DNA of 64,000 nt from Craspedostauros australis (taxonomy: Eukaryota; Bacillariophyta; Bacillariophyceae; Mastogloiales; Achnanthaceae): assembly GCA_026770025.1 (NCBI GenBank), contig JAMXDE010000016.1, forward strand, positions 1,488,001-1,552,000, given 5' to 3'. The notes beneath the pieces were generated by a model. It worked only from the letters and a program-made list of their open reading frames with translations, was not told the origin of the DNA and did not search any database. The translations under genes and the position numbers were made by a program. This document shows, in pieces, positions 23,782-58,768 of the stretch (position 1 is its first letter; every line of letters starts with the position of its first letter).

Positions 23782-26222
23782 GATCACTTCTCAACTGTGA
23801 AGAGCTGTGCGTTGTGATTTGCCGTCGTCGTGCGACCGATAGAGCAGAGTGGAGTCAACCCTCCAATCCTGTATTGCGGCTATGTACGCGTACAAAGTTC
23901 TAAGTGCAATGTTTGGCCTGGAGCCTTCGCTCGGAAGCTTCGCTGCTCGCGGTTTGGAGTCTTTCGCCCGATGCTGCCCCCAGTTTGCGCCCGATTCGTG
24001 CTTGCCTGCTTGTGGTTGGACTCGTCGTCTTCTGATGTGGCTGTCACCGCTTGCGTCACTATGGTGTGAATGTGTGGATACCTGAGAGAGTGGATTGCAG
24101 ATAAGTACGCTACGCATGCACCTGTTTGTTGTGATCACTTGGAGACTCCAGTGCGTGCGCTTGTCGATTGGTGGCCGTTGGGGTTTTTGATGCCAGAGTC
24201 ACGATGTGTGTGTGTGTGTTTGCGTCTTTGTGTGTTTTTGCAGAATGCAAACTCAGAGCAACACCAAATGGCGCAAATGTGCGGCGTTCGCCCCTTGCAT
24301 CTCCTTGGATTTTTGTTTCGGGTGATGTCATGTGATGTTCCATTCCTCGGTGTTCCTTGCCACGACCAAAGCATGACTCGGCAGAAGTGCTACGAAAGTC
24401 CACGCGAGCCGCCTACACAACTTTCACTTTTTGAAGCGAAGTCGCAACAACAGCGATCAAAGTGATGATGTGTCGTCACAGACATTTCGTACCAATGATA
24501 TGAGCTATACCGATGCGCGTTGGATGTAGAGCATCACCCACAGATGGGAGACACAATGTCAAGTCAACCATCCGGACATGCCCACATCATTGCACAGTCT
24601 TCCACTTATGTCAGCTGCACATCGTTGCAATGGAGCGGCCAGGATGCCCTACCAGGTGGACGTCCATCGGAGTAAAGACCAATCGATGACTGAGTTGCAT
24701 GGCACTTGTGTTGTGTAGACCGTATGGTATGGTACGCCCCAATCCTGACTCCATTGTATGATACAATAAATATGTACATGAGAAGTTATGGACACAACAT
24801 CAATAGTGATTGCACAACACTAGTCTGTGGAGCGAACAAGAGAGAGAGAGAGAGAGAGTATATATACATTTGTGAGCTGACCTCATTGCTTGAACGATTG
24901 ATTGAAGCAAACGATGGGGCAACAAACAAAGCATGGTAGCCACAGGGTACTTGCTGGTGTTTGCTGGCCCTATCCTTGAATGGAGGTCTCGCAACAGCTG
25001 ATTCATAGCACATCAAGCATGGACATCATGATGTCATGCAATCAATTACGCTCGAGCTCATTTGGTACATCAATCAGGTCCAACTAATGAGACTGGCCAC
25101 TTGCGCAGCAGTTGCCTACATCCAGGAAAACTTGAGAGAGAGGCAGCGAGTTAGGTGCATGGATGTTGCAAGCATTGCTGATGTTGTTAACTGTGCTTGC
25201 GCAAAGGTTGCTGCTGTTGGCCACAATGGACGAGCATCGATCTGTTGGAACTTGCAAAGGAATGCGCCAGTGCCCATGAACCTCTTGTCAGGACGTAGAT
25301 TCTCCTGGTCTGTGCGGCAGAAGCAGCAAAGATGGAACAGCATCAGTTGCCTGCTTGCAGTGTGGAATGTGTCAATCCATTTCGACATGCAGTGCGGTGT
25401 TGGTTTTATCTCTTGAATGCCTGCTGTCCATGTTTCAATTCTGATCATTAATGCAACAGGAAAATAGACGGTCAACTCCACAGCAGGTGGATCCCAACTG
25501 ATGTGATGCAACCAGAATAGCAACTTTCATGATTCCAGGCTTTGGTTCACACCTCAATTTGCTGCCAGTGATGGCAGGTCAACTGGTGTCAATGATCTTG
25601 GAGATGCAATGATGATGTATCATCAGAGAAAAAGCGAAGCCTTTGGTGCACATGATGGTGGTGGCAGTTTTCCTTCCTGCTATCTCTCTTTGGACACCTT
25701 TATTTTGTGATCTTTGGATGGATGCTTTGTGGTGGACACCAAGGTGGTGTTGGTTGTGGCAGATGTTGCGGCTGGAGCCCAAGTTGTTGGTTGTGGTCGA
25801 TGTCGCTGGTGGCTGACGGTCGTTGAGTTTCCTGAATGGTCCTACGAGTCGAAGATCCTCGTTTTCAAGGATGCTCGCAGAACACGCTTCTTCCTTCTTT
25901 CTTCTTGTTGTGTGTGTGCATTTTCGTGGTTGGTGGGAACAGAAGGATCCAAACCACACGAACCAGAGGGGTGCGATCAAGAGAAGGAGAGGACCATGCG
26001 AACAAGACAACAACACACACCACTCAACCCCATACTCGAGCACATCAACAACAGACATCGAGTTACCACACAGTGTATGATACTCATACAAATACAAGCT
26101 ATTGAAGACACACCATCGATATCTCTGCCATAGGTAACTCGAACTACACTCTTCCTCGACAGCCAATCCAACGTCAATCGCCCAACGTCAATCGTCCAGT
26201 AATCATCGACCATCCTCTCAAA
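23782..26222. other. 2.4 kb without a supported gene
   Basis: Open frames at 25036-25416, 25116-25523 and 25579-26166 overlap antisense to one another and show no domains. Simple repeats: (GT)n at about 24206-24240 and (AG)n running into TATATATA at 24839-24866. A trinucleotide-free, AT-richer composition than the flanking genes suggests decayed repeat DNA in 24.4-25.6 kb, but I recognise nothing specific. Confidence 0.4.
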
Positions 26223-28031
26223 ATGCCGAATGTTGCGAACGAACAACTCTTTGCTGCTGTCATAGCAGGTGACTTGTCGGTGTTGAAGGAATGGAAGACG
26301 CAAAGTGAAGGAGTTGATGTCGACTGCAAAGACAACAATGGTCCCACTCTCCTTCATGTGGCATGCGTTACCGGCCAGCTGGAGTGTGTGAAGTACCTCA
26401 TCGAATCATGCAGGGTTGACACCAACTGCAAAGACAACGATGGTTGGACTCCCCTTCATGCGGCATGCGGTACCGGCCACCTGGAATGTGTGAAGTACCT
26501 CATCGAATCACGCGGGGCTGACATCAACTGCAAAAACAACGACGGTGACACTCCCCTTCATGCGGCATGCCAAAACGGCCAGCTGGAGTGTGTGAAGTAC
26601 CTCATCGAATCATGTAGGGCCAACACCAACTGCAAAGACAACAATGGTCTCACTCCCCTTCATAGGGCATGCGGTACCGGCCAGCTGGAGTGTGTGAAGT
26701 ACCTCATCGAATCACGCAGGGCTGACATCAACTGCAAAGACAACAAAGGTCTCACTCCCCTTCATCTGGCATGCGGTACCGGCCAGCTGGAGTGTGTGAA
26801 GTACCTCATCGAATCACGCGGGGCTGACATCAACTGCAAAGACAACGATGGTGACACTCCCCTTCACGTGGCATGCATTCCCGGCCACCCGGAGTGTGTT
26901 GCGTACCTCGTTGCATCAGCCAATGCCGATATTGACATCCAGAACAACAACAACAAAACGCCCCTCGACATGATCGATGCAAAACTTCAAATCAAGATGA
27001 TAAACAGTCTCGATCATCTGAGTCACTGCAACTCACAACTGCAGGAGCAGTTGAAGGAGAACGAGCAGGAGACCAAACAACTGAAACGGCAGTTGGAACG
27101 GAAGGAGGAAGAGAAGAAACAGAAGGAAGAAGAGAACGAACAGCTGAAACAACAGTTTGAACGGAATGAGCAAGAGAAGAAACAGAAGGAGCAGGAGAAT
27201 GAACAACTGAAACGGCAGCTGAAACAACACCTCAAGATCAGCATCGACCAAGATCGTCGCGCCGCTGTTCGTGCCGAGGCCATCGCAGACACTTCCTTCC
27301 TGTGCGGACAAGGGGACGAACAACAATCAATCAAGGCAAACTCCGGAGTCCTCATTGTCACTGTTCCATCCATTCAGACATTGATCAACTCCGGAATCCA
27401 ACATCAATGCGCTCACGATGGTGCTCAAGATGGAACTGAACCCATCCAAACGACCATCCCTCTTCCCAACCTTCAACCAAAACATGTCCGACATGTCCTC
27501 CAATGCATCTACACAGGTGAGATGTCCTTCGACAACAGCGCTCATGAAGACAACGCCAATACCGGTGACGCAAACCAACCAACTCCCACCCTCAATGGAC
27601 AGGACGATCTGCAACAGCTGATCCTTGTGGCCAACGAGTTCGGCTTCTGGCGACTCAAGCTTGTTCTTGAAGCAGAGTTGGCCTGCAAGCATCTCACACA
27701 GACCACCATGATGGATGTGTTGATATTCGCTGATCAACACAACAGCGTGGTGTTGAAGGATGCAGCCATGAGGTTGGCCGTTGGATATGAACAAAATCTG
27801 TTCACTCATCCAGATTTCAAGAAACTGTTTCCACACATTCAACTGATGACGGAGACCCAGGCGTTTTGCAGTGGGGAAGCGGAGAGCGATGACATTGGTG
27901 ATGAGTACAGCCGTATGTCCATGATGGAGCTGTACAAGGTCATAGATGAGGATGAGGGCACAGCACAAGTGGACTCATACATGGATCGGGCGACACTCGT
28001 GGACCTCGTCCGCTCCATGAGAACCAATTGA
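26223..28031 (+). CDS. Ankyrin repeat / coiled-coil / BTB-like protein
   Basis: 602 aa, no intron. After a short N-terminal segment resembling a degenerate ankyrin unit, six tandem ankyrin units start at about residue 35, each beginning CKDNxG-TPLHxAC and ending YLIESxxADIN, followed by a diverged unit. Residues 265-338 are Glu/Lys/Gln heptads, a strong coiled coil. The C-terminal part resembles BTB/POZ plus BACK: LIVTVPSIQTLINSG, PLPNLQPKHVRHVLQCIYTGEM and LILVANEFGFWRLKLVLEAEL. BTB proteins commonly act as Cullin-3 adaptors; with ankyrins as the substrate-binding part this is a plausible, inferred role. The N-terminal BTB strands are poorly conserved. Confidence 0.85.
   Translation: MPNVANEQLFAAVIAGDLSVLKEWKTQSEGVDVDCKDNNGPTLLHVACVTGQLECVKYLIESCRVDTNCKDNDGWTPLHAACGTGHLECVKYLIESRGADINCKNNDGDTPLHAACQNGQLECVKYLIESCRANTNCKDNNGLTPLHRACGTGQLECVKYLIESRRADINCKDNKGLTPLHLACGTGQLECVKYLIESRGADINCKDNDGDTPLHVACIPGHPECVAYLVASANADIDIQNNNNKTPLDMIDAKLQIKMINSLDHLSHCNSQLQEQLKENEQETKQLKRQLERKEEEKKQKEEENEQLKQQFERNEQEKKQKEQENEQLKRQLKQHLKISIDQDRRAAVRAEAIADTSFLCGQGDEQQSIKANSGVLIVTVPSIQTLINSGIQHQCAHDGAQDGTEPIQTTIPLPNLQPKHVRHVLQCIYTGEMSFDNSAHEDNANTGDANQPTPTLNGQDDLQQLILVANEFGFWRLKLVLEAELACKHLTQTTMMDVLIFADQHNSVVLKDAAMRLAVGYEQNLFTHPDFKKLFPHIQLMTETQAFCSGEAESDDIGDEYSRMSMMELYKVIDEDEGTAQVDSYMDRATLVDLVRSMRTN
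26325..26936 (+). repeat. Six 102-bp tandem repeats encoding 34-residue ankyrin units
   Basis: The word TGCAAA starting each unit recurs at 26325, 26427, 26529, 26631, 26733 and 26835, an exact 102-bp spacing. Units are nearly identical at DNA level in the first five copies, including synonymous sites, which points to recent unequal exchange or conversion. The period encodes 34 residues instead of the usual 33. Confidence 0.9.
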
Positions 28032-29533
28032 TCTGAAGTGATTGAGGCAGACGGCACTGCCACTGATGACTTGAACCCAGATCACTCTACGGCCATGACA
28101 TTCTTGCCATGGCTGTTGGTTCTGTTGTTGGCGCTACGATTGCCCATATACCAAGATCTTCTCTACTCCGGAGCAGTTGGTTTGATATCTTCCTTTCTGA
28201 TGTCGCTGAGCGATGCGACACATTTGGGATCGCTGTTCGTCACTGCTCGCCATTCACCATCATCATCGGCATCATCGTCGTCTTTTGCCATGGTCGCCTT
28301 CGTTGATTCTGGTTGGCGTGCCATAATTTGCGCAGCCGCTGCTTGCTTGATCACGTCATTGCTGCGTTTCTTTGTCGCGTGACGGACAATTTCCAGTACT
28401 GGCTGATATCTCCATCAATATAAACACATTCATACCATTTCATCTCTCTTTCTTTCTCACTTTCTCTCCGGATGTGTTGATGTTGTTTGATGGATCATGT
28501 ACGAAGTCGAAGATTCGTCATTTGTGTGGTGTCAAGAATTGTTGGCACGTTTGGTGAGTGCTCATCCGTCTGGCATCCGCGGTTCGTTCAACCTCACGTA
28601 GTAGTAGTCGTACGCACCTGCCGCAAACAACTTCAGTTTGTGGAGTTGGGAGAACTTGGTGGTTGTCCACGACGGCATACGTACACAAACAATCACAATG
28701 AACGTCACCTCCCTGTTGTCTTCATGCACACAGATGAGGTTTGATAGAACACAGACAAAAATGGGTACTTACCTCGAGATTGGGAGTGATCAGGTCCGTC
28801 AAATGAAGTAGAGTGAAGCTAGTAGGAATTGTCAGTGTGCTCTGAGTGGTTAATTGATGTTTAGATGATGTTAGCTGGCCCAATTCAGAACTGTTGGAGT
28901 CTGAATTGTGAGCAGATGGAGATGAAATGATGAAAAATGATGCTGAGGCAACATGTGTTGCAACACACAGCAGAGCATGAAGTGCAGTGCATGAATTACA
29001 GTGCATGAAGTGGAGAGCATGAAGTGGAGAGCATGAAGGTGTTGTCAAGTTTGCAAGACTGAGGAGGTTCATGGCACCTCCAAGACCTTTCTTGCTTCTT
29101 GGAACAACAATGATGCATACAGCAAATCCGATCATTGCAGAAATGCGATCTTGCCAAATTTGATGGGATTGATGAGCTTGTATCTGAGCCAAGATGCTCA
29201 GATACATTCACTCAACAAGACAGTAGACATGCCCTGTGAAGGTGGATTCGCAGGGATGCAGACATAGATGTTCAGGTGCACATAAGGAGGATGACAGGCA
29301 GGGCCTGACATCCATCCTTCAACTCATTACCACCTTCAGATACCAAGACAGGTATCTGAGCGCCGTTGGGAGTTGCGGGATATGAGGTCAACAGAGAAAG
29401 AGAAAACGGTTCATGACCAAAAGTCTCATGCGTGACCTGACACAATCTACGGAGAACAAGACTAGACATAGACTAAGGTGAATATAGACTTTTGATCTGA
29501 TAAGGTTGTCACCAATCTTTTTCTGTTCGATTA
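28032..29533. other. Mostly non-coding; possible small ORF 28095-28382
   Basis: A 95-codon plus-strand ATG frame (28095-28382) encodes a hydrophobic protein with two or three possible helices; the antisense frame 28354-28163 encodes a hydrophilic acidic peptide. They mirror each other, so at most one is real. Short repeats of CATGAAGTGGAGAG at about 28975-29037. Nothing else recognised. Confidence 0.35.
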
Positions 29534-29535
29534 TA

Positions 29536-29652
29536 TCCGTAAGGAATTTTTTGTGTGGGCGTTTTCGTAAGTGGACTCACCAGTCCACTTACGACCACAA
29601 AAAAAGTAGTCGAATTTCGCTCATCTGAGAAAAGACTACTTTGACCACTCCA
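29536..29652 (+). repeat. Left terminal inverted repeat
   Basis: About 117 bp. Contains one CGTAAGTGGACT / AGTCCACTTACG palindrome (29566-29593, spacer CACC) then AAGTAGTCGAATTTCGCTCA and AAAGACTACTTTGACCACTCC. Matches the reverse complement of 34511-34702. Confidence 0.8.
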
Positions 29653-29916
29653 CCTTCTCCAAATTCCCTGTTTCTCTCGGTTGCGTTCTGGTTGTGATGC
29701 TGGCTTCGTATTTTGTCGCGTTGATTTACGTGTCGTCAACCGCATCCTTCGACTTCAATAGACTTGTAGACGGTAACACAACAACTTTGTGTGTAACCAC
29801 AAGCTTTTTATCGTAATTGTCGCCCCCTTCAGTACCATTAACGTCTCTCATCATCAAATGTTCCTCTAATATAACACTGTTTAGGTTCCCACCAGCTTCA
29901 AGAAGCTTGTTTCATC

Positions 29917-30363
29917 GTGAGTACTTTGCCTGACATCGCATCCCTCATCGAGCACATAGCAGACGCCACCAACCACAGCGACAATGACACCGACAGTTCA
30001 TATGAAGACTGGGTTATTGATACCCCAATCGATCTTGACAGTGGCAACAATGATGACATCCTTGGGGTCCACAACGAAAGCAATGTTGACGCCAACAACG
30101 TCGATACTGGAGTCTACCCTGTTGGCAATGCTCATGTGGTCAATGATGCACCAGCAGCCATACTGATTGCTGACATTGTTGCTGCTGCCAACATCATCAT
30201 CCCCAATGATGCTCGCACTAACACAACTACAACCAGCACATCTGCAACCGGCACATCCGGAACTGTTGAACAACTAGCTCTGACAGAACCAGAACGAGTG
30301 GCTTCTATGGGCCTGCAATGGAAGATGCTGGATCCCAACACGGCAGAGTTTGTGTTGCTGTGA
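29917..30363 (+). pseudogene. Transposon cargo ORF, Thr/Asn/Ala-rich
   Basis: A 148-codon frame opening with GTG, no ATG start, rich in Asn, Asp, Thr and Ala. It ends just where an overlapping frame (30318-30728, containing RKALLDAKVHYKQLTNEQ) begins, so the two may be one protein broken by a frameshift near 30318-30363. No domain recognised. Confidence 0.35.
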
Positions 30364-30728
30364 GAAAGGCCTTGCTTGATGCAAAGGTGCACTACAAGCA
30401 GCTCACAAATGAACAAGACAACTCATCGAAATTGGAGGCCAACCTACAAGCCTCTGTTGCGCAATGGTCAGAGGATGACTGCTCACCAGAAAGTCTGCAC
30501 CTGTCTGCGCTCGCGCAATGGAAACAAGCGTCCAGCCAAGACGTTGCAAAACAAGCTCAGCCTCACCCTGAGCACCCATGGAAAGGCAAATCGCAAGCAC
30601 TGCATGATGCCGCCAAACCGTTTTCAAGGGCTGTGCATGAAGCAGCTTTCAAAGGACATGGACATCCTCTACAAGACTGCAATGATGGCTGCTTCAACCA
30701 ATGCAAGCCATTCCATCCCATCTCCTAG
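30318..30728 (+). pseudogene. Transposon cargo ORF, helical Gln/Ala/Lys-rich fragment
   Basis: 136 codons of amphipathic, Gln/Ala/Lys/His-rich sequence (VAQWSEDDCSPESLHLSAL, HPWKGKSQALHDAAK). It overlaps the end of the preceding frame. No recognised domain; likely part of a decayed element protein. Confidence 0.3.
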
Positions 30729-31586
30729 CCAGACGACAAACAACTGCAGGATTCGCATGGCATTGCCTGTGAGAAGGGAGTCAGTGTTGCCCAGGCTGCT
30801 GCAACCCAGCAGTCAAGTGATGCTGCAGCCAGCATCAACCGCAACTCTGGCAGGTATACAATTGCACCTAGTACATGCAGTTGTTGTGCCTCCCCTTCAT
30901 TCACATTATCCGCATTGATGTCTGCCACATCAGCTCCTCCTCCATCCACATCTACAACGCACAGCACGAGGTCATCTGCTTCTAGATGGACGAGGCCATC
31001 TCGACTCACACCAGCATCAAGGCGCACAAAGTCCGTCCACTGCCATCAAGGACAATCTTTGTCTGCTCGGCAGACTTGAACATCTACAACTTCAGTCGCC
31101 AGCACTTTCGCTCTCCCTTCATCTCCAGCTCAATCCTCCATATCTTCAAACTTCGGCATGCAACACACACCCCACTGAAGAAGCCGCAGCTGCGGCATCT
31201 GCGCCCAAGACTTCAGGCTCACCTGCCTCACAATCCACATCGTCCACATTCAACACACCAACCCCTTGCACATCAGGCACGCCAGCTTCCGGCACTGCAG
31301 CATTGAGCACATCTGCCTCTGGTCCACCCACTACTGCCACATCCGTGTCGAATGCAGGTGCTTCCAGTAGAGCAGAGACTCCGGGCACATTGGCATTCAC
31401 TGACATGTGCCCGCCAGATGAAAACACTACTGCGCATGATAACAGAGGTAGCTCAGAGCACAGCAATCTTTCATCCCCATCCAACAATGCAGACTAAGCC
31501 ACAGCAGCAACAAGGAACAGTACCTCCAGTCTCCAGACTGATACACAAGGGGAACGCAATGAAGTGATGGCACTGTATCACTCCAG

Positions 31587-31964
31587 TTGCTGGGACTGCA
31601 GCAACAGCTTGCAAAGACAGCTTTGCAGGCATGGTTCATGAAGGCCTGGCATGATAAATCCTATGCCTACACACGTCTGGGACACGCAAACGAGGAACTA
31701 CTGATGAGAGCAGCCATGAACTGCGAACATGTGGGTAGAATCAACACGACCATCAAGGCCGCATTTCATGCTGGTGTCGTCCGGAAACAGAGCAAAAGCT
31801 ACGTACGTGCCTCCATCGATTTCCTGAGCATTGTGGGGGATCCAACCAATGATGCACACAATGAGGTATTCATTGTAGAGATGAAGATGAGAACAACTCA
31901 GAACACAAAACTGAAAGGGGAGTCGCATCGGAAATGTGGAACATGTGCACAATTTCCCAACTAG
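31587..31964 (+). pseudogene. YqaJ/PDDEXK nuclease-like fragment in the transposon
   Basis: The frame reads FMKAWHDKSYAYTRLGHANEE, then VRASIDFLSIVGD with an Asp at codon 78, then FIVEMKMRT with the E-x-K pair at codons 98-100. This G-x-x-N-E ... D ... E-x-K layout is that of the YqaJ-like branch of the PDDEXK nuclease fold, found in phage recombinases and in some eukaryotic transposons (family knowledge). The frame stops at 31964, and coding-like sequence continues in another frame (NAQDETYRSLFRADEE at about 31980-32030), so it is broken. Similarity is judged by eye only. Confidence 0.45.
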
Positions 31965-33059
31965 CACCCATCTATATCTGAATGCACAAGATGAAACATA
32001 TCGCTCACTCTTCCGGGCAGACGAAGAAATGATCCAGGTGCTTCACCATGCATATGTGTCTATGGTGTGAGAGGAGCTCTGATTGTGATCGGTAAGTGCG
32101 CCTTGTGGCAAATGCAACACAGGTTCTCCATGTCCGAATGGCTTCACTTTGTTCCGTACCAACCTCATCTGTCTTCTCACACAACTGTGGATCCCTTTTC
32201 CACAACCACTGACTCACATGAACGCTCGATTGGGTGACAAGAGACAAAAAGGGAAACATCCTGTGCATTGTAGGAACGGGGTTTTCCCTTGGCCTCTTGC
32301 ATCATTCTGAGAACGTTCCTGAAGATGCATCCCATTTGCTCTTGGCGTTTGCCTTCCCCAAAATTCCAGAGGCAGATCAGCAATCATCCAAGGCGCTCCA
32401 TACAGAGTTTCTCAAGCTGAACCCAAAGACGAACAAGTTCTGCAGGGCAAGCAAGAACCTGCGGAACATCACAGGGGATGGTGTATTCCATCACAAGAAG
32501 ACTTGACAAACCCACCACAACATGCTTGCTTTCCCAGTACCTCCAGTGAAGACATTCCTCCCCTGAGCTGTGCTGTATGGAACTGCCTGAATTGTGGGTC
32601 TGACATAACAACAAAGCTCATCCAGCAGCACAAAGCGTCCCCACTCATTGCAACAATCCATTGCATAGCAGTCGGTTGATAGCTACAAACCATGGTTGTG
32701 GCACTGCATTGATTGATTCACTACGCAACAGAGGCACACTCCGATCATGAAATTGAAGCAGGCCACACTGGCACCATCGAACATTATCCCAGCAGAGTAA
32801 ATCATGAGTGAAGCCTGAACAAGTTGATGGGATGAATCATTGCTCGGTTGCGCAAGTTGCTCGCAGTCATGGCTGCAGACGAAAGAAAGGGCAAGAAACA
32901 AAAGGGAGGCATGGAGACAGCGATCCACAACACTGATATCATTCCACCAGGCGGGTCAGCCGTCGAAGATGGCGAGATGCAGCCACGGGGATGCCCCGAG
33001 GACCATCAAAATAAAAAGGAATGCTTGCCAGCCTATCCACGATGGATCCCAAGGAGGAG

Positions 33060-33194
33060 ATCAAAATGACAAAATGATTGCGGCAGGGTGAGCATGCAGC
33101 AAGGTACTGTCCAGACATGAGGGGAACCTGTGTTGCCTGCTCAGTGTGTAGACACTGGATCTGTCCAGGATGCAACTTGTATGCTTGCTGATAC
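33060..33194 (+). pseudogene. Cys/His cluster fragment in the transposon
   Basis: Reading from 33090 gives HAARYCPDMRGTCVACSVC followed by RHWICPGCNLYAC and a stop. The spacing of cysteines (C-x2-C-x2-C-x4-C-x2-C, plus His) looks like a small zinc-binding C-terminal module, as seen at the ends of several transposase families. No adjoining intact domain is found. Confidence 0.4.
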
Positions 33195-33330
33195 ATCGAA
33201 GCTGACAAACAGGAGTGGCTCACGACATGTGGCATTGCCCTAACCATGGCAATAAGAAACATCGCAAAAGAGCGGACGCAATCATTGTTCACAACTTATG
33301 TCATCGACTTGTGCACAAGGAGCCTGTTGA

Positions 33331-33672
33331 ATGGGTAGAGAAGGTGAAGGCCCAGCATCAATGAGAGAAGCCACCACAATGAACGCTTTTATCAGCACAA
33401 ACACAGATGAGACAACCACCACAGCTACAAATGCAGTAACAGAGATAGCAAGAGAGATGAGCAACGAAAGTAATGACAACGCCGACGGTGAAGCCACCAC
33501 TGCCAAGGAACATCAAACAAACATGGCCACAATAATTAGCTCAAGGGTGCCTGTCCTGAATCTGGAAGCAGCAATACAAGCTGCGCACAAGGCAGCCGCC
33601 AAAGCCAGGATCCAGAGCAGAGATACATGGGTCATAACTCACGGTCTGTACGGAAGGAAACGGAAACGATGA
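33331..33672 (+). pseudogene. Unassigned cargo ORF, Thr/Ala/Asn-rich with basic tail
   Basis: 113 codons, ends with a basic tail (LYGRKRKR) preceded by an Ala-rich helix (LEAAIQAAHKAAAKARIQSR). No domain recognised. The basic end could be a nuclear localisation signal. Confidence 0.3.
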
Positions 33673-34146
33673 TATACTATACGAATTATGTACACCAACG
33701 TATTCCACGCATAAGAGGCTCGCAAGGATGACTGTAGCATAACAGTAGCATAACAGTAGCACAACAGTATCATAACAGTAGAGAAAGACAATATAATGCA
33801 GAGTAGAGTCAGTGTTGATTGCTGTTATTGTGGGGATGGAGAGAGTATTTGTGTAAGGAAGGAACGGAGGAGGTGCGTCTCAATGCAAAATCGCTGTGTG
33901 CACAAGTTTACACGCAACACCACGAAGAATCCAAAAAATGTGACAGGGTGGGTGCCTTATGCCGGCGTACGATTGATGTTGTATTTTTTTTTACGAATGA
34001 TGTTGTACTTGATACGATTGAGGTTGTTGTTGTGGATGTAAGACCAAATTATGATTACTTGAGCTATCTCTCTCTCTTCTGCTGTCTGCACCTCTTGGTC
34101 GATTGTATTTCAAGATGATTCGGTTTCCACTTCTCCCAACCCGATC

Positions 34147-34203
34147 CATTCTCTATTAGGTTTCTCTATTAGGTTTCTCTATTAGGTTTCTCTATTAGGT
34201 TTC
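34147..34203 (+). repeat. Four 13-bp tandem repeats inside the transposon
   Basis: TCTCTATTAGGTT is repeated four times head to tail, ending in TTTCTCG. Confidence 0.85.
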
Positions 34204-34261
34204 TCGTTTTGGTTGGAGGTCAATGGTTGAAGAAGTGTCTTCTCATATGCAAATATTTACA

Positions 34262-34405
34262 TACGATTAAGTCTTGACTAATCAGACTTCCAGTTGGATT
34301 CTTGACTCATCTGACTTCAGTTTGAGTCTTGACTAATCCGACTTGAATCTTGATTCACGACTCGTCAGTCTTGATTGACTGTTAACACGACTCGTAGGTG
34401 AGACT
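34262..34405 (+). repeat. Subterminal CTTGACTAATC/GACTT repeats
   Basis: Variants of TCTTGACTAATCAGACTT recur (TCTTGACTAATC, TCTTGACTCATC, TCTTGACTAATCCGACTT, TCTTGATTCACGACTCGTC) about every 25-35 bp, shortly inside the right terminal repeat. Many DNA transposons place transposase-binding repeats in this position. Confidence 0.6.
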
Positions 34406-34510
34406 GACAATGTGATTGCTTGGGTGACATTATTCATGACTAGTATCTATTGTGCACAAGTCTAGGTCTTGTGTCACCAATAGTCTATCTAGCCAGCCGT
34501 CTAGGGCAGT

Positions 34511-34702
34511 GGGGTGGTCGAAGTGGTCTTTTCTCAGATGAGCGAAATTCGACTACTTTTTTGTGGTCGTAAGTGGACTCCTCAGTCCACTTACGGTAAC
34601 TGGACTGAGGAGTCCACTTACGAAACAACAAAAATGGTAAGTGGACTGAGGAATCCACTTAGCCGTAAGTGGACTCCTCAGTCCCGAAAAATTCCTTACG
34701 GA
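34511..34702 (-). repeat. Right terminal inverted repeat with extra palindromes
   Basis: Inverted match to 29536-29652, but the CCGTAAGTGGACT/AGTCCACTTACGG palindrome is amplified to several near copies between about 34567 and 34684, including GTAAGTGGACTCCTCAGTCC and the reverse. Confidence 0.8.
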
Positions 34703-34704
34703 TA

Positions 34705-35300
34705 TCCATCCTCTCGTATGTGATAGCAACATCCAAGGCTGCAGATGAACCATGTGGTCTTGTCTCGCTTGCATGTTGCCTTCGTGGCTCGACTGGAGCG
34801 AGATTGGAGCAATCGACGGGTTCGAATTGAAAATTGGCGTTTGCACTAATACATGTTGTTGTGAATTCACCACAACTCCACGGCCCTTCCGAATTGTTCC
34901 AGTTCGGAAGAAACGATTGTAGTCGCATGAGTCGTTATTGGTCAAACAGAGAACACGTCATGTCGCTTGTGTCTTTGTTCTGTCGCCTGCACAACCGCAT
35001 TCGCTTTGTTTTGGGGAGTTAAATAGTGCATTGACAAAATGTCTGCCAGCGCGCCTAAGCCTATGATGACTGCGCTGCTTCTGTGGTTGAGGCACTTTTG
35101 GTTCATTCCTGGGAGCCATGGTAATATAGATAATTTCCCTCAGGTCTAAAAGCAAAGACCCAACGGGATTTATTCGAATTGGCAACCACACAAACAAAAA
35201 TCACGACAGGCAAAATGGGTCTCCTGCGCGATGCATTGTTCATACGTGTACAACCAATTGCTCTGCTCTGCTCTGCTCTACTTGTTTAGTCGCCGTCTCT
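34705..35300. other. Flank between transposon and DDE gene; nothing recognised
   Basis: Only short frames. A GCTCT repeat occurs at about 35261-35280. Confidence 0.45.
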
Positions 35301-55953: not shown

Positions 55954-58500
55954 TTACATCTCTGCTGTGTTGGTATCCTGCTCTGCTTTGCTGTGATGCT
56001 CGTCCTTGCCAACGAACATGGCCACTTCGAATGTGTTCATGGTGGGTGCTGCTTCGGCTTTGCTGTTGTTGTTGCGAGGCTCAATGATGTGGGCTTTGCT
56101 CTTGCTGGGTTGCTTCTTTCTCTTCTCGTCTTTCTTCTGTTGCTCAGCCTCCTCATTGGCTCTGGTTGTCGCAACGATTTGCTTCTCCAGCAACGGAATG
56201 AGGCTGCTGGTTGTTGGCAGGTTCGTTTTCAGACACTGCAGTCCACTGACAGCCATCACCTTGAGCGCATCATTGTACATACCTTTGATGTCGGGCTTGG
56301 CGTATTTGAAGCCAGCTGATTTGCCTTTGTTGCCTGTTGCAGTTGGTTTCTTGGTGGTCGCGTGGGTTGCCTCATCCTCCTCCAACACGAAGTCCGTGTG
56401 AGACACGGTAACGCCGATCTCGTTGCCCTCCTTGTCGAATTCAGTGGATGTTTGTTTCCGCACATTCATGTGCAGTCCCTTGCGCTCCGTCACAAATTCG
56501 TCACCTCCTTCCGCAGCACAAATTGCGTAGGCGATCTGATGGTGGCGAACATACGCGCTAGCCACCTTGTCCAGCCCAAATTGCTCCCAACAGGTTTCAC
56601 AAGCACCCCACAACGCCTCGGTGGTAAGCAATCGGCTTCCGTGGTGCTCACCTTGATATGATGACACGTGTTTTGACATCGCTGGGAATATCGCATCGTC
56701 TTTCACATTCGTGATGGGAGAATTTGGTGGTTGCAGTCGTAAGTGCCATCCACGACTGTGGAACTCCTCCTTGATGAATCTAAGTAGCTCTGTGTCTCTG
56801 TGTGGCCCTGCGCCATCCATCTGGTACCGAATCACCACGTTCTTGCCCGTTTCGGCCTTGATTTTGCTGGCGAGCGAATCCAGTGCAGGGATTTCTTTTT
56901 CGCGGAAGAATTTCTTGAGGCTGTACTTCGGCTTGGGCTTAACACGATGACCATCTGTTTCCTTGCTGCCCGTGATTTCCAGTGGTTGGAAGTACAGTTC
57001 ACCCTTCTTGCGAGAGATTTTCTTGGGATCAGGAAGGTGCTTGTACTTGGTCGGCAAGACCCAAGTTCGCTTGTACGTGGTCTTCTGCGCTCGGACCATG
57101 CGCCCAACACGTTCGAAGTTCACCTTATACGCCTTTCCTCCTTTCGCAAAACAGTTATTTGTTGGGGCAAATGCTGTTGATGCAATTGCCATGGTCTTGT
57201 CAATGTGACACTTGTGATGCACAGTCTGCTTCACAGGCTTAACTCCCATCTGGGGCACATGTTTCAGATGCTTGCAAGCGACAATGGAGTAGAACCACTT
57301 TTCGTCCATGTGGACAACAACAACTTGTGTATTCTCAAACTGCTCGGCTGCTTCCCAGAACACACAGAAGTCCTTGGCCCAGATGTTGCGCTTTGCTGTT
57401 GTGGTGCCATTGATCAGAGGGAGTATTGTTGTAGAACAGTACTCACTGCCTTCCAATCCCATGACGAATTTGCGGATACACTTCGGACCAACAACTTGCG
57501 GGTTTCCGCTGCCTGCCAGTTTCCATGCAATTCTGTCCCACGAGATTGCGCCATTGCACCGTCGCAACACATCCTGGAGCTCAATTTGCAGGAAGGGACC
57601 ACGCTCCAACCACAAATCAGCCAGTGCTTTTGCGGATGCCAGCTCTTCCAGCGAAGCAGAGGCATAGGCAGAAGCGATTTCGTCATTCTTCAACTGTTGC
57701 TCTGGATGTCGAAGACGTAGTTGTTTCTCGAAGGCTGCGCGTGGCGTGAAGTACTGTCGTTGCTTGATGGGGCAGGTGAAGATGCTGCTGCCTGCGTCAC
57801 TTCGCTTCTTGCATTCGAGCGTCTCCGTTTGGAATTTCACAATGTTGCGCCCTACTGTGGTGCGGTCGATACCCCATGCATGGGCGATCAATTTCATGTT
57901 GGCTGGAATCCCACCCAAATTGAAATAGAGAACAGTGTAGTTCCGATTGTCTTCTTTGTCAAGGCGCTTGCAAGGATCACCAGGCTTAGCAATACTACGC
58001 CCTCCATCCTTTCGCAACCATCCTTTTGTTTTCGCGCCTTTCTTCATCTGCTTCGTGAGCTGGGCGATTGCTGTTGCTTTCTGACGCCGCGAGACCTCGA
58101 GAAAAGCGGCGATTTTGGCTTCTTGCAATTCTGTGGTAGTTGGGGATGGTGTGGGGGGCTTAGCCTTGTTGTTGACACGCGTGGCAGCGACGGAGTGATG
58201 CTGGGGAGAAAGGAGGGAAGGCTTAGCAAGGCCTCCAGCAGTGCGAGTCCGTGCGAAGGTAGCGAGGCTGTGTGGTGTGCACAGATCCTCGCGAACAACA
58301 TACATTCGGCTCTGCCCCATCACTGGGGTCACCATGACCATTGCCACCTCTCCTGGTGCAAGAGGCCCATCACGTTTGACTGTAGCGCTGTCCGTGGTCT
58401 GCTTCATTGCAAAATCAACATGACATACGCCCAGGTCATGGACCCTGCCGCTTGAGCTCTGGTGGGATGCCACCTTCACACAGTCACCAGCGCGCAGCAT
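55954..58500 (-). CDS. Mariner-like (IS630/Tc1 superfamily) transposase, intact 848 aa
   Basis: Uninterrupted frame from ATG 58500. The N-terminal third has a helix-turn-helix-like region (PANMKLIAHAWGIDRTTVGR). The DDD catalytic triad is readable: VVVHMDEKWFYS (D399), VIRYQMDGAGPHRD (D562) and LQPPNSPITNVKDDAIF (D601 or D602), a 38-39 residue spacing as in plant mariner-like DD39D transposases; the usual SPDxN is SPIT here. A Lys-rich loop of about 100 residues between the first two aspartates (KKISRKKGELYFQPLEI) and a C-terminal Lys/Glu/Asn tail make it longer than typical. Absence of stops over 2.5 kb suggests recent activity or constraint. Element ends were not located. Confidence 0.85.
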   Translation of the reverse strand: MLRAGDCVKVASHQSSSGRVHDLGVCHVDFAMKQTTDSATVKRDGPLAPGEVAMVMVTPVMGQSRMYVVREDLCTPHSLATFARTRTAGGLAKPSLLSPQHHSVAATRVNNKAKPPTPSPTTTELQEAKIAAFLEVSRRQKATAIAQLTKQMKKGAKTKGWLRKDGGRSIAKPGDPCKRLDKEDNRNYTVLYFNLGGIPANMKLIAHAWGIDRTTVGRNIVKFQTETLECKKRSDAGSSIFTCPIKQRQYFTPRAAFEKQLRLRHPEQQLKNDEIASAYASASLEELASAKALADLWLERGPFLQIELQDVLRRCNGAISWDRIAWKLAGSGNPQVVGPKCIRKFVMGLEGSEYCSTTILPLINGTTTAKRNIWAKDFCVFWEAAEQFENTQVVVVHMDEKWFYSIVACKHLKHVPQMGVKPVKQTVHHKCHIDKTMAIASTAFAPTNNCFAKGGKAYKVNFERVGRMVRAQKTTYKRTWVLPTKYKHLPDPKKISRKKGELYFQPLEITGSKETDGHRVKPKPKYSLKKFFREKEIPALDSLASKIKAETGKNVVIRYQMDGAGPHRDTELLRFIKEEFHSRGWHLRLQPPNSPITNVKDDAIFPAMSKHVSSYQGEHHGSRLLTTEALWGACETCWEQFGLDKVASAYVRHHQIAYAICAAEGGDEFVTERKGLHMNVRKQTSTEFDKEGNEIGVTVSHTDFVLEEDEATHATTKKPTATGNKGKSAGFKYAKPDIKGMYNDALKVMAVSGLQCLKTNLPTTSSLIPLLEKQIVATTRANEEAEQQKKDEKRKKQPSKSKAHIIEPRNNNSKAEAAPTMNTFEVAMFVGKDEHHSKAEQDTNTAEM

Positions 58501-58768
58501 GCTTGCAAGGTGAAGAGTTCAGTGGTTGTGGGATGATACAACTACGTCCAATGTTGGTGAAGGTTGATAGAACTGTGTTATTGTGTGTGCTTGTTTGAAG
58601 TGATGGTTTACAAAGTTAAGTTTGTTGAGATTATGAGCTCATCAATAAGAGCTCATCATCTTCCTGTTTTCTACTTCTTGGCTCCACTAATGGTGCTATT
58701 CACCATTGTCCATCGTGTTGTAACCATGCCAAACTGCTGGTTACTCCTGCTAATTAGTGTATCTGCGT

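Follow-up and report, generated by a model that had tools for sequence, protein, structure and literature searches.

A 5.17-kb transposon of the diatom Craspedostauros australis is probably a deletion derivative of a family encoding a DDD-type transposase with an inserted nuclease-like domain

We analyzed a 64,000-nucleotide stretch of the Craspedostauros australis genome (assembly GCA_026770025.1, contig JAMXDE010000016.1, positions 1,488,001 to 1,552,000 of the forward strand; hereafter, the window), which contains a 5.17-kb mobile element at 29534..34704. The best explanation of our observations, to which we give a probability of roughly 0.75, is that this element is an internally deleted, non-autonomous copy, and that its longer relatives elsewhere in the genome encode a single protein combining a three-aspartate (DDD) transposase with an inserted nuclease-like domain.

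Longer relatives encode a three-exon protein

Searching the genome (74.8 Mb, 90 contigs) with the end of the element, TATCCGTAAGGAATTTTT, at up to 2 mismatches returned 73 places, compared with 0 for the reversed control pattern, in agreement with an earlier reading of the window (the initial annotation) that took the element for a transposon and proposed a search for further same-ended copies; one of the 73 matches (TTTCCGTAAGTAATTTTT) looks like chance. As a DNA query, the left end returned 98 matches. Two longer elements, L031 and L036, were located through ends in common, and these two and L019 each carry three long frames. L019 belongs to the subfamily of the window element itself, while L031, L036, and a set of divergent families make up the other longer relatives. 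Protein searches of the genome returned 74 matches for the middle frame of L036, 101 for a compact member, and 90 for the nuclease core.

Six genes were spliced, each into three exons, with GT-AG introns of 94 to 179 bp at matching places in all six; splice acceptors were picked by eye, keeping the frame, and exon 3 of one gene (C25) is interrupted by an in-frame stop. One long frame was rejected, having been shown to run through a stretch of N. The alignment of the six spliced proteins contains 195 invariant columns, which include the motifs DDDKVH, DRG, and KGGSD, the E, D, and E-x-K of the nuclease-like block, and the six Cys of a C-terminal cluster. From the N-terminus onward, the order is DDDKVH (D1); DRG(Y/F) with GTHKR (D2); WD; a variable stretch; the nuclease block, with its motifs GHxxExPLM, SxDFL, and VEMKTR; N-x-x-KGGSD (the presumed D3); and the Cys cluster. 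Judged by eye, the three D motifs (DDDKVH, DRGY/F, and N..KGGSD) stand in the same order as those of piggyBac, and the protein is, in our assessment, quite likely a DDD transposase of the piggyBac/IS4 type.

The nuclease-like block sits between the second and third D motifs of the full-length protein. When 13 relatives are aligned with the window copy, G37, E41, D83, E103, and K105 are invariant, and the conserved E...D...E-x-K set of PD-(D/E)XK nucleases is present throughout. By our reading of the search listings, the D2 part and the nuclease core share one open frame of at least 610 amino acids (aa) at 37 loci (C24 and C25 were read directly), and four further loci have a stop within the match. 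The ratio of nonsynonymous to synonymous substitutions (dN/dS) in the nuclease is 0.14 for L063/L055, 0.27 for L019/L026, and 0.10 for L062/L059 (with dS saturated); several other pairs were saturated, and the corresponding value for the D2 part of L019/L026, 0.78, is unreliable because the L026 segment starts outside the homologous part. We would put somewhat better than even odds on the nuclease being active and used in transposition. Weak Pfam matches under their cut-offs (Endonuc_Holl in L058; Viral_alk_exo in L063, this one outside the nuclease block; RE_HindIII; and zf-HIT) were set aside.

The window copy has lost the first part of the transposase

The coding remnants of the window element, compared by eye or by alignment with the longer relatives, are as follows.

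29875..30363, + strand: exon 1 remnant of the transposase, N-terminal part only; a 162 aa frame aligning to L019 up to its position 1139
30365..30371, no strand: internal deletion junction (1.6 kb, L019 1139 to 2742), from comparison with L019
31563..31964, + strand: PD-(D/E)XK nuclease-like domain remnant; a 133 aa open frame with the E, D, and E-x-K kept
32323..32679, + strand: exon 3 remnant with the third-D motif as NCGSD; an open frame, broken, compared by eye with the spliced relatives
33102..33188, + strand: Cys cluster resembling a cysteine-rich domain (CRD), read from the sequence; its six Cys are invariant in the six spliced relatives
33331..33672, + strand: exon 3 C-terminal remnant, resembling the C-terminus of L019

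Relative to L019, the window copy is missing a 1.6-kb segment that takes in the latter half of exon 1, all of intron 1, and the start of exon 2, and with it DDDKVH (D1) and DRGF (D2). It is this deletion that accounts for the lack of a DDD set here; the family as such does not lack one. The initial annotation had described an interior with a nuclease-like domain and a Cys cluster instead of a DDD transposase; both features are indeed present, but both are leftovers of a DDD protein whose first part has been deleted. The nuclease-core protein search of the genome also matched the window at 31797-32096 (E 1.2e-10), with two stops inside the match. Pfam matches to I_LWEQ and Nuc_N at 33331..33672 were weak, under their cut-offs, and set aside.

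Our sample of window-type elements comprised 17 further insertions, retrieved as 20 loci (L009-L028). Except for L019, copies with both ends and free of nested inserts measure 4.5 to 4.7 kb and are about 95% identical to the reference copy, L009. More of the gene is retained in L019 and in L026/L027, the interiors of which are about 82 to 85% identical, and L025 is alignable over 1.1 kb only, at 92% identity. L017 and L018 are 99.7% identical, with the same bases preceding the end, and may be a single insertion present in two assembled copies. Separately, two of the copies (L026:5474-9901, with L027; and L010/L011) harbor a nested segment, roughly 8.3 to 8.4 kb long and bordered on both sides by the same 16 bp, and the L026/L027 insert contains long frames resembling a reverse transcriptase and an endonuclease (names given by eye).

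We compared lesions, using L019 as the reading-frame reference, across 12 copies (the window, L009, L012-L018, and L022-L024), leaving out those with nested inserts, L019, L025, and L028. The 12 are 93.2 to 99.7% identical over their 66 pairs, and two sets of lesions occur in all 12: one stop plus two frameshifts within the exon 2 part, and five stops plus two frameshifts within exon 3. Other lesions are common to 3 to 11 copies, and a further 36 were each seen in no more than two. Because lesions are common to all 12, it was an already broken copy that was amplified. The window copy is very probably a non-autonomous deletion derivative, which would have been mobilized in trans. Ac/Ds-type systems consist of autonomous elements together with deletion derivatives amplified in trans; the present family resembles them in its amplified internally deleted copies and differs in its transposase.

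Element ends and the target site

The ends of the window element carry the following features.

29534..34704, + strand: whole element including the two TA target-site bases, delimited by its inverted ends, genome-wide copies, and the borders and empty sites of sister copies
29534..29551, + strand: outer terminal inverted repeat with TA, left
34687..34704, − strand: outer terminal inverted repeat with TA, right
29565..29594, no strand: subterminal palindrome, left, arm 13; putative transposase binding site
29600..29653, + strand: inner arm of the inverted repeat, 94% complementary to its partner at 34509-34562
34568..34684, no strand: palindromic units, clustered at the right end (34568-34595, 34595-34620, 34636-34661, and 34664-34684)

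With the TA bases excluded, the element proper spans 29536-34702. Its inverted ends start with TA followed by TCCGTAAGGAATTTTT, within a perfect 19-bp inverted repeat (29533-29551 and 34687-34705), and the subterminal palindromes are of the GTAAGTGGACT...AGTCCACTTAC type, so that the ends are both inverted and self-palindromic, as originally described. Counting perfect palindromes with an arm of at least 9 and a loop of at most 8 over ten elements, we found 23 in 4,000 bp of ends as opposed to 2 in 46,775 bp of interior, and 4 in the 58,500 bp of the window outside the element. At this threshold none occurs in the right end of L030 or in the two most divergent of the ten elements (C29 and C24), which have shorter inverted units only. 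Palindromes lie at similar distances from the tips in the window, L036, and L031 types, with a different sequence in the L031 type. The left palindrome at 29565..29594 is a probable binding site for the transposase. The elements that house the divergent genes C29 and C24 measure 5,258 and 5,243 bp; their ends (ATATCCACGG...) are of the ATATCC kind, with short inverted units and A/TA..TA/T borders (slashes setting off the duplicated bases). In the stretch covered for C25, ends of this kind did not turn up.

All 23 insertions read at both ends (the window and 22 others; loci with a single end found were left out of this count) have the border A/TA...TA/T, confirming the TA borders noted before and familiar from Tc1/mariner elements; among the single-end loci, one end (L037:8858) is preceded by G. 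For empty sites, the flanks of each of the 23 insertions were joined and searched against the genome, scoring the best 40 candidates per search, a depth that may overlook some empty sites. Paralogous empty places spanning the site were recovered for 6 of the 23 (L009, C64, L022, L029, L031, and L045), and in one aligned example for each, a single ATAT is present in 6/6. The predicted empty sites with a single TA therefore exist, within ATAT, for six sister insertions; for the window's own site, the best 40 candidates yielded only its own two flanks. These data fit insertion at A/TA/T with duplication of TA, and the single ATAT of the empty sites rules out both an AT duplication with ATCCG ends and the absence of any target-site duplication. 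We also observed that a copy at C16:1384500-1400300 and L036 are both inserted directly beside the same sequence, ATATCCCTAATGAG. This sequence may belong to the tip of a different ATATCC element, in which case new ATAT targets might arise with each insertion.

Relationship to piggyBac and other superfamilies

The family resembles piggyBac in several respects. According to PMC7351741, the helix of piggyBac that contains D447 comes after G444 and G445, with an insertion domain following the fifth strand and preceding this helix, and its CRD binds to a palindromic internal repeat. By eye, all three features (a D helix after a GG pair, an insertion, and the pairing of a CRD with palindromes) have a likeness here: D1, D2, an insertion, and D3 after a GG pair are followed by a C-terminal Cys cluster, and the ends carry subterminal palindromic repeats, a correspondence found at the motif level only. 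The family differs from piggyBac in targeting TA within ATAT rather than TTAA, in the lack of a PF13843 (piggyBac) match in two spliced proteins, and in the block of several hundred residues, nuclease-like domain included, that precedes the presumed D3. Profile–profile comparison (hhalign) against five piggyBac sequences, three from this genome and two from the PDB, gave under one setting a score of 32.0, whereas none of 60 column shuffles reached it (at most 27.4) and the reversed profile scored 12.4. Of 14 exon 2 proteins, 2 matched the IS4-type profile DDE_Tnp_1 (PF01609) with E ≤0.05 (best 9.5e-5), and in a genome scan 3 family loci were at or just over its 23-bit cut-off among 71 matches. 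Kinship with piggyBac is suggestive, not proven.

A number of results weigh against the interpretation given above. Two spliced proteins have no Pfam match to PF13843 or YqaJ at E ≤1 (only two chance-like matches, E 0.09 to 0.1, to other families), and PF13843, with 160 matches in the genome indicating that classical piggyBac elements live beside this family, has none at the family's places among the matches listed. Under the other hhalign setting the score was weak (28.3, P 0.0099, probability 4%), with D2 aligned to D2; D1–D2 alone gave P 0.034 and D3 alone P 0.26, with KGGSD placed on the piggyBac GVD motif, and the correspondence of D1 and D3 was set by eye. A PDB profile search gave no match for exon 2 and, for the nuclease, one sulfurtransferase match at 0.44 that we read as chance, as we do the seven PDB matches of the D2 part (the best, to a designed ankyrin, reached 3.6e-4, though none of its stretches was significant by itself). 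The W-D pair of exon 2, which is also invariant, could be the third catalytic residue instead. Thirteen loci (e.g., C11:1177214-1178773) have matches that end at residue 528 of 652, short of the nuclease D and E-x-K motifs by a small distance, and are not among the 90 listed matches of the nuclease-core search, which speaks against a universal nuclease; this subgroup may be either a natural nuclease-less variant or another deletion family. Finally, the empty sites fit a four-base ATAT duplication as well as TA within ATAT, and the two cannot be told apart.

The alternative that survives best is that this is a piggyBac member proper in which the choice of target has drifted and the nuclease-like block, a degenerate insertion, serves no more than a structural role. 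The order of the motifs, KGG-x-D, the Cys cluster, and the palindromic subterminal sites all resemble piggyBac, and the 13-locus subgroup seems to lack the D/E-x-K core; yet the E, D, and E-x-K are invariant in 13 relatives and the window, the listed PF13843 matches miss the family altogether, and TA is duplicated in place of TTAA, so that we consider this alternative unlikely.

A relationship to ISL2EU (PHIS superfamily) or KolobokE, in both of which a DDD/E transposase is combined with a nuclease of the YqaJ or lambda-exonuclease-like kind, is more doubtful still. In PMC4482050, ISL2EU combines a DDE transposase with a YqaJ exonuclease in a second open reading frame (ORF), has an AT-rich 2-bp target-site duplication (AT at A/AT/T) and a THAP domain, and was found in animals only in that study; a transposase together with a nuclease and an AT-rich duplication of 2 bp are its likenesses to the present family. 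KolobokE, in PMC9587614, has a PD-(D/E)XK lambda-exonuclease-like nuclease downstream of the transposase domain, and Kolobok duplicates TTAA. Here, TA is duplicated at A/TA/T and the nuclease precedes the presumed third D; the aligned empty sites show neither an AT duplication at A/AT/T nor TTAA (the latter also expected of piggyBac), each having one ATAT. The YqaJ profile (PF09588) matches the genome twice, both times outside the family's listed loci and with a weak match among them.

The initial annotation suggested Tc1/mariner-type mobilization, with a mariner-like transposase at 55954-58500 (in our reading, the frame at 55954-58518) that could act in trans; although TA is duplicated and this frame has a DEKWF motif, we consider the proposal very unlikely because the window contains the element's ends only at the element itself (two matches) and the motifs of the DDD-type protein encoded by the longer relatives are different ones. 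Around 55954-58518, no pair of inverted repeats resembling the element's was listed, and the two spliced proteins have no Pfam match to a mariner-type transposase. The frame itself (− strand, 854 aa) carries DEKWF, presumably a mariner-like motif, and has no Pfam match even at E 10. Elsewhere in the window, a 641 aa frame upstream of the element (26106-28031) has ankyrin-like repeats by eye, the genes include an HSF-type factor, and PT repeats are also present.

A possible mechanism and its implications

Returning to the DDD transposase with an inserted nuclease, we suggest that the longer relatives would make one three-exon protein consisting of an N-terminal part, a DDD core, a nuclease-like domain between D2 and D3, and a Cys cluster. 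Binding of the ATATCC tips and of the subterminal palindromes would be the task of the Cys cluster and core; the DDD core would cut and join the 3' ends, and the nuclease might cut or trim the other strand or act on the donor site. Strand cleavage in the manner of TnsA (Tn7) and resection of the donor appear about equally likely. The window copy would have moved in trans with enzyme supplied by relatives such as L019. Of this picture, the ends, the target, the deletion, the common lesions, the gene structure, and the conserved motifs are observed, whereas the catalytic roles, the activity of the nuclease, and movement in trans are inferred.

In Tn7, a PD-(D/E)XK nuclease, TnsA, works with a DDE transposase, TnsB. 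The likeness lies in the partnership of a nuclease with a DDE transposase, and the difference in that Tn7 uses two bacterial proteins and the present family, as predicted from its sequence, one eukaryotic polypeptide. We read the family as a TA-targeting, piggyBac/IS4-like lineage with a built-in nuclease, possibly a new superfamily. Still more tentatively, and at well under even odds, it could constitute a eukaryotic superfamily of its own, defined by one polypeptide with a piggyBac/IS4-like DDD core and a PD-(D/E)XK nuclease between D2 and D3, an A/TA/T target, and subterminal sites that are palindromic though their sequence differs by subfamily, with two active sites cutting both strands as a single-chain counterpart of TnsA plus TnsB. 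No relatives were found in the viral contigs, prokaryote genomes, and phages searched (plasmids lay outside the search), and among the open papers covered (Repbase being outside scope) we recognized none describing a nuclease between D2 and D3.

In the two published eukaryotic pairings that we found, ISL2EU and KolobokE, the nuclease occupies an ORF of its own or lies downstream of the transposase domain. A nuclease inside the catalytic region, kept together with the D2 part in 37 loci of a single genome, would offer a direct test of how a DDD transposase divides the cutting of two strands, and the deletion derivatives and empty sites in this genome could be used for such tests. If the interpretation is correct, the site at which such transposases carry insertions is able to accommodate an entire enzyme.

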